Positions 17,647 through 22,545 of a stretch of 64,000 nucleotides of DNA are shown here, piece after piece. Under the pieces are notes generated by a model. That model was not told where the DNA came from. It saw nothing but the letters and a program-made list of their open reading frames with translations, and searched no databases. Both the position numbers and the translations under genes were made by a program. The stretch is from Planctomycetota bacterium (GTDB lineage Bacteria > Planctomycetota > Phycisphaerae > Sedimentisphaerales > Anaerohalosphaeraceae): positions 62,001 through 126,000 of the forward strand of contig JAKPDO010000050.1 in assembly GCA_029552545.1 (NCBI GenBank). Direction: 5' to 3'. How positions within the stretch are numbered: position 1 is the first letter of the stretch; each line of letters begins with the position of its first letter.

Positions 17647-17662
17647 AAGCAAGCCCTGTCAT

Positions 17663-17733
17663 CTGGCCCGCAGGGACTCGAACCCCGACTAAATGATCCA
17701 GAGTCATTTGTGCTACCATTACACTACGGGCCA
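17663..17733 (-). tRNA. tRNA-Gln (anticodon CUG)
   Basis: Complete cloverleaf on the minus strand: acceptor TGGCCCG/CGGGCCA, anticodon stem AATGA/TCATT around loop CTCTGGA (anticodon CTG, reads CAG), T-arm with GGTTCGAGTCC, discriminator G. No encoded CCA. It is one of two Gln tRNAs in the window. Confidence 0.93.
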
Positions 17734-17878
17734 ACGCAAAACAGGGATAGTATCGGCAAAACGGGCTTCCGTCAACAAGGAGAAGGTTTTTTTGTGAGCA
17801 TTTCGGAGAAAGCCGGGGAGAGAGGGGATTGTAAGTCTTTTCAAAAGGGACAGATAAGGAAAAGAAGCCGGCCTTTTT

Positions 17879-19885: not shown

Positions 19886-20044
19886 TTCTGTACTCCTTTC
19901 AAAAAAAGATTTTTTTATCGGTCTTCAGCAACAACACCTTTATAGATGGTTGGCAGAGGGATTTTATTGCAAGAATTATAATTTGGTATAAAGATGGGAT
20001 ATGTCCTGTTAGTAGGCGGGATTGAAAAAAGAAGGATTTATGAC

Positions 20045-20073
20045 TTGAAAAAGGGAAAAGATTTGTATAGTAT
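20045..20073 (+). promoter_or_regulatory. Candidate promoter of structured RNA
   Basis: TTGAAA (20045-20050) with TAGTAT (20068-20073) at 17 bp, or TATAGT (20066-20071) at 15 bp. Directly precedes the hairpin-rich segment at 20087-20256. Confidence 0.4.
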
Positions 20074-20079
20074 TCCTTT

Positions 20080-20290
20080 TTTGTAGCCCTGCCTGGTGGG
20101 TAGGTAGGCCCGTCTGGAAAGGTCTTTCCCGAAGGACCGGAAGACGGAAACGTGGGGCTGACAGGTACGCAGCATGGTCAGCTCAAGCCCGTGGCAGGGT
20201 CCGGTCGGTCCGCTTCGAAGGCGGCCACTGCGACTTACGTGAACGGCATCGTTGCCTGAAAGCGGGTTTTCTTTCGTAACGAAACGGCAG
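20080..20290 (+). ncRNA. Candidate structured RNA of unknown family
   Basis: About 200 nt with no coding potential but dense pairing. Seen by eye: CCCTGCC (20087-20093) with GGCAGGG (20193-20199), enclosing CCGTCT/AGACGG (20110-20115/20142-20147), GGTC..GGACC (20121-20138) and GGGCTGAC/GTCAGCTC (20155-20162/20177-20184). A second part holds CCGC/GCGG (20210-20224) and GGCA/TGCC (20245-20256). A promoter-like sequence precedes it and tRNA-Gln follows. No signature of RNase P, tmRNA, SRP or 6S RNA was recognised. It could be a stable small RNA or a leader of the tRNA transcript. Confidence 0.4.
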
Positions 20291-20296
20291 GCGAGG

Positions 20297-20302
20297 TATA
20301 AT
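20297..20302 (+). promoter_or_regulatory. Candidate -10 box of tRNA-Gln(UUG)
   Basis: Perfect TATAAT ending 18 nt before the tRNA. The -35 region (around 20273-20279) matches poorly, so the tRNA may also be transcribed from the upstream promoter. Confidence 0.35.
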
Positions 20303-20320
20303 TTTGCCGCGTGCGGGCGA

Positions 20321-20392
20321 TACCCGGTGGTGTAATCGGTAACACAAGAGGTTTTGGTCCTCTTATTCCTGGTTCGAGTCCAGGCCGGGTAG
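20321..20392 (+). tRNA. tRNA-Gln (anticodon UUG)
   Basis: Acceptor TACCCGG/CCGGGTA, anticodon stem AGAGG/CCTCT around loop TTTTGGT (anticodon TTG, reads CAA), T-arm with GGTTCGAGTCC, discriminator G, no encoded CCA. Starts UA, as is normal for Gln tRNA. Confidence 0.94.
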
Positions 20393-20410
20393 GTTGGAAG
20401 ATGATTATGG

Positions 20411-20496
20411 AGTCCCGCCTTCCTTCTTCGCTGAAGCTTCGAAGGATAGGACGCGGGGAGGGCAAAATGGATTCCCGCCTGCGCGGGAATGACAAG
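20411..20496 (+). repeat. Dispersed palindromic repeat, copy C
   Basis: Contains TTCGCTGAAGCTTCGAAGGA and ends with ATTCCCGCCTGCGCGGGAAT. Almost identical to the inverted copy at 37546-37599. Lies between tRNA-Gln and glmU. Confidence 0.85.
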
Positions 20497-20559
20497 AAAT
20501 GGCGGGAATGACAAGAAATGGCGGGAATGACAAGAAATACGCGAGAACGGCAAGAAAAT
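20483..20559 (+). repeat. 19-nt tandem repeat
   Basis: Unit GCGGGAATGACAAGAAATG occurs three times in a row from 20483 (third copy with one change), followed by a fourth decayed copy at 20541-20559. The first unit begins inside the right end of repeat copy C, so it probably arose by slippage from that element. Confidence 0.85.
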
Positions 20560-20587: not shown

Positions 20588-21595
20588 GTGAGTAGTAAAA
20601 CGGAATGTGCAGCAATTGTTTTGGCGGCGGGTCAGAGCACCCGGATGAATACCCGTCTGCCGAAGGTGCTGCATGAGGTGTGCGGGCGTCCGATGCTGGA
20701 TTATGTTCTGGATGCCTGCCGCGGCGTTGGGGTGCGTCGGATTTATGTCGTAGTCGGCTACGGAAAGGAACAGATTCTCCGGCGGTATCAGGGACAGGCG
20801 GATTTGGAGTTCGTCGAGCAGCCAGAGCAGCGGGGAACGGGGCATGCGGTGATGTGCTGCCGGAAGCATCTGGAGGGGTTTGAAGGGCATACGCTGGTGC
20901 TGTGCGGGGATGCGCCGCTGATTCGCAAAGAGACGCTGGAGATTCTGCTGGACAAGCACCTGTCGGAGAAGTCGGCGGTGACGGTGGCGACGGCTGTTCT
21001 GAAAGACCCGAGCGGCTACGGGCGGATTGTGCGGGATGCCTACGGGAATATTCAGGGGATTGTAGAGCACAATGGCTGCAATGAGCAGCAGCGGAAGATT
21101 CAGGAAGTAAACACCGGATATTTCTGCTATCAGACGCCGCTGCTGCTGAAGGGGCTGGAAAAGATTCGCCCGGATAACGCCAAGGGGGAATATTACCTGA
21201 CGGATGTGCTGCATGTGCTGCTGGCGGAGGGGCATAAGGCGACGGCGGTGACGGCAGTGGCGGAAGAGGACGCAATGGGCGTCAACAGCCGTGCGCAGCT
21301 GGCCGTCGTGGGCAAGATTATGCAGCAGCGGATTCAGAATCGGCTGATGGCCTCCGGGGTGACGATTGTGGACCCGCCGAATACGTGGATTGATGACCGG
21401 GCGCAGATCGGCCAGGATACCGTGATTGAGCCGTTTACGTGTATTCGCGGAGCGGTTCGGATTGGGACGGGCTGCCGGATTGGGCCGTTCGCTTTTGTGG
21501 GCGAAGGGGCCCAGGTGGCGGATGGGCAGGACGTCAGGGCCTTTACAACGCTGGGTCGAGTGGGGGCAAGTGATTCCAGGGAGGGACAAAAATGA
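20588..21595 (+). CDS. glmU: N-acetylglucosamine-1-phosphate uridyltransferase (GlmU lacking acetyltransferase part)
   Basis: Makes UDP-GlcNAc from GlcNAc-1-phosphate and UTP. The N-terminal domain is intact: LAAGQSTRMNTRLPKVLH (about 12-29), CGDAPLI, EVNTGYFCY, and GEYYLTDVL. Normal GlmU has about 450 residues with a long left-handed beta-helix that acetylates GlcN-1-phosphate; here the protein has 335 residues and only about two coils of the helix (IGQDTVIEPFTCIRG...), ending in VGASDSREGQK. The stop overlaps the prs start (ATGA), so this is not a simple frameshift at the boundary. GTG start at 20588 with AGAAGG about 8 nt upstream. First gene of the long block; gene order glmU-prs-rplY-pth matches Bacillus gcaD-prs-ctc-pth. 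Confidence 0.9.
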   Translation: MSSKTECAAIVLAAGQSTRMNTRLPKVLHEVCGRPMLDYVLDACRGVGVRRIYVVVGYGKEQILRRYQGQADLEFVEQPEQRGTGHAVMCCRKHLEGFEGHTLVLCGDAPLIRKETLEILLDKHLSEKSAVTVATAVLKDPSGYGRIVRDAYGNIQGIVEHNGCNEQQRKIQEVNTGYFCYQTPLLLKGLEKIRPDNAKGEYYLTDVLHVLLAEGHKATAVTAVAEEDAMGVNSRAQLAVVGKIMQQRIQNRLMASGVTIVDPPNTWIDDRAQIGQDTVIEPFTCIRGAVRIGTGCRIGPFAFVGEGAQVADGQDVRAFTTLGRVGASDSREGQK

Positions 21596-22545
21596 TTCAT
21601 CATCCCCTGATTGTATTCGGTGGGACCAGTCATCCGGAATTGACGGAAGGGATTTGCCGGTATCTGAAGCAGGAGCCGGGCAAGGCGCGGATTTGGCGGT
21701 TTCCGGACAGCGAAAAGATTATCAAGCTGGAAACGGATGTGCGGGGGACGGACTGCTTTGTGGTGCAGTCGGTCTGTGAGCCGGTGGATGAAAATCTGGT
21801 GGAGCTGCTGATTTTTCTGGATTGTCTGCGTCGGGCCAGTGCGGCGCGGGTGACGGCGGTGATTCCGTATTTCGGATACGCCCGTCAGGACCGGAAGGAT
21901 GAGGGGCGTGTGCCGATTACGGCCAAACTGGTGGCCAATCTGATTGTGGCCGCCGGCGCCAGCCGAGTGCTGACGCTGGATTTGCATGCGGCTCAGCTGC
22001 AGGGGTTCTTTGATATACCGGTGGACCATCTGACGGCGGAGCCCGTAATCGCCAAGTATCTGAAAACCAAGCGTCTGGACAAGCTGACGGTTGTGGCGCC
22101 GGATGTGGGGAATATGAAGAAGGCGGCGCGGTATGCCCAGAAGCTGGGGGCGGACCTGGCGATTATTCACAAGCGGCGGGTGAGCGGGTCGGAGATTGTG
22201 TGCGGGGAGATTATCGGGGAGGTGGAAGGGCGGAATATCGTGATGTGTGATGATATGATTACAACGGGCGGGACGATTTGCGGAGCGGCGGAGCTGCTTA
22301 AGCAGCGCGGGGCCGGACAGATTATCGCCGGGGCCACCCATGGTGTTTTGGCAAAGCCGGCGATGGAGCGGCTTCCGAAAGCGCCGCTGGATGAAGTGAT
22401 TGTGACGGACAGTGTGCCGCTCGGTGCCAAAGGAACTGTGCTGAAAAATCTGACGGTTTTGAGCGTGGCGGACCTGCTGGGCGAGGCCGTCCGGCGGATT
22501 CATCTGAATCTGTCCGTCAGCGGTTTGTTTAACGGAACAGAGTAA
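21592..22545 (+). CDS. prs: Ribose-phosphate pyrophosphokinase
   Basis: Makes PRPP from ribose-5-phosphate and ATP for nucleotide, His and Trp synthesis. 317 residues, standard length. AVIPYFGYARQDRKD (ATP-binding/catalytic flexible region), TLDLHAAQLQGFFDIPVDHL, and CDDMITTGGTICGAAELL (PRPP-binding loop, slightly divergent from the usual VDDxIDTAGT) are present. ATG overlaps the glmU stop by four nucleotides. Confidence 0.96.
   Translation: MIHHPLIVFGGTSHPELTEGICRYLKQEPGKARIWRFPDSEKIIKLETDVRGTDCFVVQSVCEPVDENLVELLIFLDCLRRASAARVTAVIPYFGYARQDRKDEGRVPITAKLVANLIVAAGASRVLTLDLHAAQLQGFFDIPVDHLTAEPVIAKYLKTKRLDKLTVVAPDVGNMKKAARYAQKLGADLAIIHKRRVSGSEIVCGEIIGEVEGRNIVMCDDMITTGGTICGAAELLKQRGAGQIIAGATHGVLAKPAMERLPKAPLDEVIVTDSVPLGAKGTVLKNLTVLSVADLLGEAVRRIHLNLSVSGLFNGTE

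Follow-up and report, generated by a model that had tools for sequence, protein, structure and literature searches.

Genes that join a tRNA to another non-coding RNA reportedly occur in plants, where, going by the title of the 2003 report of Kruszka, dicistronic tRNA-snoRNA genes form one gene whose parts are separated by RNase Z. As far as that title goes, the locus described here is similar in that a tRNA and a non-coding RNA would share one gene and be parted by a tRNA-processing enzyme, as proposed below, but it differs in being bacterial, in having the RNA first, where the plant title names the tRNA first, and in carrying an RNA with no known guide motif in place of a snoRNA. The SAM-IV riboswitch is alike in topology, with a P1-closed junction, a hairpin 3' of P1 and a pseudoknot between a hairpin loop and the 3' tail, while the put and EAR antitermination RNAs are also promoter-proximal structured RNAs that head an operon. 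Unlike SAM-IV, the present RNA does not stand directly before a coding gene, unlike put and EAR it is tied to tRNA-Gln in the examined loci of its order, and unlike all of these it has no match in Rfam. To our knowledge, few structured RNAs without a family occur in single copy in nearly every member of an order and extend through a class; several earlier ones proved to be ribozymes, ribonucleoprotein cores or riboswitches, and the 2017 set of 224 motifs is said to be mostly in Rfam. Rhodopirellula, the genus named in the Rhodopirellula-1 motif, presumably belongs to another class. By description rather than by model, that motif is comparable in having Planctomycetes among its sources: it is a candidate from Planctomycetes and Proteobacteria, and its table row shows no Rfam accession (PMC2864571). 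The passages searched nowhere describe the present RNA (PMC2864571, PMC7671301, PMC4247193, PMC11109978).

The window is the whole 64,000-nt stretch of DNA analysed (G000:C40:62001-126000), and the model of the RNA matches it on the forward strand at G000:C40:82083-82239 (Table 1). The original prediction had placed a structured RNA over 20080-20320, between a promoter-like site and tRNA-Gln(UUG), with at least five helices. Both flanking features are borne out, and the number of helices was correct, since six can be drawn within 20086-20232, one of them a pseudoknot; the extent stands in part, 20083-20239 being conserved and 20240-20320 spacer. Transcription of the RNA would start at about 20078-20081. 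From their sequence and gene order, we take the two ORFs behind the tRNA to be a glmU-like gene and a prs-like gene.

Table 1. Features of the RNA locus, in positions of the window.
Feature	Position	Strand	Basis or remark
Sigma-70-type promoter (TTGAAA, 17 nt, TAGTAT)	20045..20073	+	alternative -10 TATAGT at 20066-20071
Conserved structured RNA (model extent)	20083..20239	+	homologues, covariation
P1 5' strand	20086..20093	+	pairs with 20193-20200
P1b 5' strand	20097..20101	+	pairs with 20187-20191, minimum-energy fold
P2 variable hairpin	20110..20147	+	minimum-energy fold
P3 5' strand	20155..20162	+	pairs with 20177-20184
Pseudoknot 5' strand, P3 loop (CGCAG)	20168..20172	+	pairs with 20228-20232
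P3 3' strand	20177..20184	+	fold, covariation
P1b 3' strand	20187..20191	+	minimum-energy fold
P1 3' strand	20193..20200	+	pairs with 20086-20093
P4 hairpin region	20208..20226	+	core CCGC 20210-20213 / GCGG 20221-20224
Pseudoknot 3' strand (CUGCG)	20228..20232	+	pairs with 20168-20172
Spacer between RNA and tRNA	20240..20320	+	outside conserved RNA
tRNA-Gln(UUG)	20321..20392	+	tRNA scan, Rfam
glmU-like gene	20588..21595	+	ORF
prs-like gene (ribose-phosphate diphosphokinase)	21592..22545	+	ORF

The RNA is widespread in the order Sedimentisphaerales. BLASTN over the 98 genomes of the relatives set matched 22, source genome included. Model R1, built from these sequences, was run on 298 genomes of the class and gave matches in 47, of which 46 belong to the source order. 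The remaining match, G320 (E 0.003), lies in another order with no tRNA near it; it is lost with model R2 and was rejected. R2 added G046 and G050; run on 40 more genomes of the order, none of which had matched before, it gave matches in 33. With these searches combined, the RNA is present in 91 of the 98 genomes, the seven without a match being G013, G014, G022, G024, G037, G038 and G067; with G013 at 93% and G014 at 95% completeness, true absence or strong divergence is possible there. Each genome has one copy in these searches, except G078, which has two matches. The tRNA-Gln pattern occurs in 58 of 62 genomes of the order examined for it, all 58 of which have the RNA, while G013, G014 and G024 have neither. 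A DNA pattern run on the genomes of named species gave 63 contigs, of which 61 are titled as a planctomycete or planctomycete taxon, one as Candidatus Kuenenia and one as 'uncultured bacterium'; tRNA-Gln follows the RNA in 60 of the 63, two more run out of sequence within 200 nt and the last is masked. The contig titled Candidatus Kuenenia stuttgartiensis (L121, CAMDDF010000015.1) carries the RNA, and its title may be wrong.

The neighbour of the RNA is fixed. Of 86 loci of the order, 83 have tRNA-Gln(UUG) behind the RNA; in the exceptions (L148, L153, L156) the contig ends after about another 65-150 nt. This count combines 22 of 22 loci, 30 of 30 (12 repeat genomes and 18 new), 16 of 17 (the other being L083, which was rejected) and 27 of 30; outside it are G046, G050, G039, G076, G081 and the second G078 match, and in the first three of these a tRNA lies just downstream by coordinates. 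Further downstream, glmU and/or prs is found in 90 of 91 loci, L179 being the exception.

Diverged homologues also occur in other orders of the class (probably Phycisphaerae). With lax filters, six of the 40 genomes searched in other orders gave R2 matches up to E 1, four of them at E 6.5e-4 to 0.004, and three of these four stand directly before tRNA-Gln(UUG). Two weak ones, G104 (E 0.08; locus L182, without tRNA) and G165 (E 0.97), were not accepted. When 60 tRNA-Gln loci from other orders were collected and searched, R2, built from the source order alone, matched 29 at E <= 1, of which 23 reached E <= 0.005, and matched L179 in addition; by coordinates, all 29 matches lie upstream of the tRNA on the same strand. 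Model R3 and its alignment A5 comprise 62 chosen loci: 40 from the source order (33 of the 54 in alignment A3 and seven newer) and 22 from other orders, these being the R2 matches at E <= 0.001 minus L189. R3 matched 36 of the 60 loci at E <= 3.3e-4 (21 in its training set, 15 outside it) and six more weakly (E 0.037-0.25), leaving 18 without a match; none of 13 control loci (L023-L035) gave an R3 match at E <= 1. An R3 match at E 0.5 in L210 is antisense. Over 392 genomes of the phylum, R2 gave 11 matches, all in the source order, with strict filters that also miss diverged members of the class itself, and R3, run on 40 genomes that belong to the phylum but reportedly not to the class, gave no match at E < 0.05. 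One genome outside the class, G480 (R3 at E 0.09 and 0.64, rescored in a smaller search as 0.0024 and 0.018), has no tRNA nearby and was not accepted. Upstream of tRNA-Gln in several of the loci L198 and L201-L204 (families f24, f25 and f20), a GCGGC/GCCGC pairing is seen by eye; these are perhaps very diverged members, and a model match among them is a weak one in L198 alone.

The predicted fold is a junction closed by P1 and P1b, with a variable hairpin P2, a conserved hairpin P3, a pseudoknot between the P3 loop and the 3' tail, and often a further hairpin, P4. P1b has the consensus GGGG/CCUC across 62 sequences, and that of the window sequence is just partly in register in the alignments. 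The P2 region ranges from 6 to 100 nt in 54 sequences. The source order has P4, which lies between P1 and the tail; other orders mostly lack it, and the P4 columns are gapped in about 21 of the 62 sequences across orders. Folding energy is ordinary, with z -0.55 for 20081-20320 and z -0.89 for 20083-20239, so that a single sequence is insufficient proof of a structured RNA; being uninformative, this measure was dropped as evidence. The evidence that lifts the predicted RNA beyond chance is covariation among the aligned homologues. Changes on both sides affect 13 of 33 pairs in 22 MAFFT-aligned sequences, 27 of 35 in 54 sequences (A3, for which 54 of 57 were kept after L078, with an odd insertion in its 3' part, and the weak L082 and L083 were excluded) and 29 of 35 in the cross-order set of 62 sequences, where P3 has them in seven of its eight pairs and where 357 such cells compare with 102 in shuffles. 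In each of the three alignments, none of 500 shuffles reaches the observed value on any of five measures. These shuffles ignore relatedness; a count of double changes by parsimony on a FastTree tree of the GlmU/Prs proteins, for 60 of the 62 loci, does not. It gives 164 standard double changes, 155 in nested helices and nine in the pseudoknot, with two or more in 27 of 35 pairs, against 3-12 in all when partners are slid by 1-3 columns, a control taken over all pairs together. With non-standard double changes included, 183 compare with 44-59 in the slid controls; parsimony discounts double changes slightly, in the controls likewise.

The 54- and 62-sequence alignments were fitted to nested helices, and the pseudoknot pairs are in no alignment model. 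The pseudoknot is nonetheless 99.4% paired within the order (54 sequences) and 94.2% across orders (62 sequences). Its form is UCGCAG/CUGCGA in much of the source family, with ACGCAG in the window; other variants are UCACGG/CCGUGA and UCGCGG/CCGCGA, and family f12 has ACGCGG/CCGCGU. Unpaired positions that are near-invariant across orders are few (five at >= 90%), giving little hint of a binding site.

None of this matches a described family. At gathering score, the 4227 families of Rfam 15 give three tRNAs in the window and nothing else, and tRNAs alone over 15 homologue loci. A permissive scan of 19940-20420, up to E 10, returns the tRNA and chance-level matches, for example a plant microRNA family at E 3.2, and one of L210, a canonical member from another order, likewise gives chance-level matches besides its tRNA. 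The original prediction had called the RNA unassigned and unlike RNase P, tmRNA, SRP and 6S RNA, and had named a match to a known family and a lack of covariation as findings that would count against it; no Rfam family matched, covariation is strong, and all four RNAs sit elsewhere in the genome. RNase P RNA (RF00010) is at G000:C55:99413-99924, tmRNA (RF00023) at G000:C7:32750-33104, and 6S RNA (RF00013) at G000:C29:203393-203578 (49.7 bits, cut-off 46.4), and none of these models matches the RNA region. A small SRP RNA lies at G000:C48:89460-89557 (57.9 bits, above cut-off), where the large-SRP model RF01854 also matches, below its cut-off; the SRP models RF00169 and RF01854 leave the RNA region unmatched. 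Judged from its sequences, this is almost certainly a new structured-RNA family, with members of about 100-200 nt, and the novelty claimed is that of the family, for which Rfam shows no relative.

Of 90 homologous loci, 65 have, upstream of the RNA, promoter hexamers matching at least 9 of 12 positions; mononucleotide shuffles do so in 8% of cases (90 of 91 loci were scored, L071 being too short upstream). In 39 of 53 loci of the source order, 8-13 nt separate the end of the best -10 box from the model start; in other orders the distance is usually 13-34 nt. The spacer between RNA and tRNA is 21-317 nt long in 90 loci. Of these spacers 88 were scanned, two of less than 40 nt being unscored, and L179, without a tRNA, has none. 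Neither kind of signal is enriched: terminator-like sites occur in six of the 88 against 4.2% of shuffles, and promoter-like sites in 10% against 8%. Compared with shuffles, the spacers are predicted to fold a little more stably (mean z -1.3, with 22 of 88 below -2), so that an unrecognised element is possible there. Before the tRNA of the window, at 20285-20309, an inverted repeat CGGCA...TGCCG surrounds TATAAT and is kept in the three closest genomes (L001-L003); it is perhaps a second start site. In four loci of family f7 (L053, L062, L064, L073), an AT-rich ATTGATTATTGA-like sequence lies in P2 insertions or in the spacer, and looks capable of long hairpins.

Comparison across genomes thus establishes the family, its predicted fold, its promoter-like site and its fixed neighbour, while its function we can only infer. 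The reading we prefer, with slightly better than even confidence, is that of a trans-acting RNA, co-transcribed with tRNA-Gln and freed by tRNA processing. It would form the first part of an ncRNA-tRNA-Gln(UUG)-(glmU)-prs transcript from its own promoter; a cut by RNase P at the 5' end of the tRNA (20321) would separate the two, and trimming back to the pseudoknot would leave a stable RNA, most likely a housekeeping RNA, present in single copy and bound to protein, that would act in trans. As the spacers are enriched neither in terminators nor in second promoters, the tRNA is probably read from the promoter of the RNA. Processing of the tRNA, which sits between the RNA and glmU/prs, would cut a leader off those messages, and the lack of terminator enrichment leaves a terminator-based switch with no visible platform; what remains is the preferred trans RNA or a cis element. 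A cis-acting leader of the stable-RNA operon, acting once folded on RNA polymerase (processive antitermination, as put and EAR RNAs do) or on the processing of the tRNA-Gln precursor, is a genuine possibility, at clearly less than an even chance. It agrees with an RNA that starts at a promoter and precedes tRNA-Gln in all but the three order loci at contig ends, and with spacers that show no promoter enrichment, and the constant gene order is equally expected of it. That order is also kept, as tRNA-Gln-glmU/prs, in 16 of 18 loci without an RNA match, so that synteny cannot separate cis from trans. A leader is harder to reconcile with an RNA that occurs once in the genome, so that tRNA-Gln(CUG) has none, with three loci of family f17 in which tRNA-Gln and glmU/prs are retained but no RNA is detectable, and with L179, where an RNA-like element lacks the tRNA-Gln operon. 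This element (L179:1501-1628) has the promoter TTGACA-17-TATACT and, in the locus sequence, no tRNA, glmU or prs behind it, as expected for a free-standing RNA; it precedes an ORF that we take to read like a dihydroxy-acid dehydratase. L179 favours a trans-acting RNA, but it is one isolated, weak example (E 0.00144 when its genome was searched, and included in R3 training).

Other readings fare worse. The compact pseudoknotted fold and the constant operon downstream would suit a riboswitch that binds a metabolite, or an attenuator, controlling tRNA-Gln, glmU or prs, but terminator-like sites are not enriched in the 88 spacers, the tRNA stands between the RNA and the coding genes, and the spacers vary widely in length, which together make this unlikely. 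Crossing helices are part of the topology of several ribozymes, which counts for a ribozyme that releases the tRNA precursor by self-cleavage; given that no Rfam ribozyme family matches and that near-invariant unpaired positions are few, we consider it very improbable. A very diverged SRP, RNase P, tmRNA or 6S RNA, or a chance structure, is hardly credible: the size range suits some known RNAs and the energy z-score is unremarkable, but the genome has all four RNAs at other places, and covariation argues against chance.

On a more far-reaching form of the preferred reading, the RNA may be an as yet undescribed housekeeping RNA of the whole class (probably Phycisphaerae), besides RNase P, tmRNA, 6S and SRP RNA, released through maturation of tRNA-Gln(UUG) with its supply tied to that of the tRNA, a proposal that we put forward tentatively and with a little less than even confidence. 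Its fixed place in a tRNA-prs operon makes the RNA directly accessible to expression, deletion and pull-down experiments in relatives that are in culture.

Some further features surround the tRNA genes. tRNA-Gln(CUG) is at 17662-17734 on the reverse strand, 2.6 kb from the RNA locus, and has no adjoining RNA, because BLASTN and R1 find the RNA once in the genome. The three f17 loci (L183, L184, L185), with tRNA-Gln followed by glmU/prs and no detectable RNA, have upstream of the tRNA a stretch that looks coding by eye, with AATGACGAATGACGA-type repeats in L183 and L185. Between tRNA-Gln and glmU in the window, at 20484-20534, CGGGAATGACAAG stands in three direct copies spaced 19 nt apart; allowing up to one mismatch, this sequence has five matches in the window against 0.2 expected.
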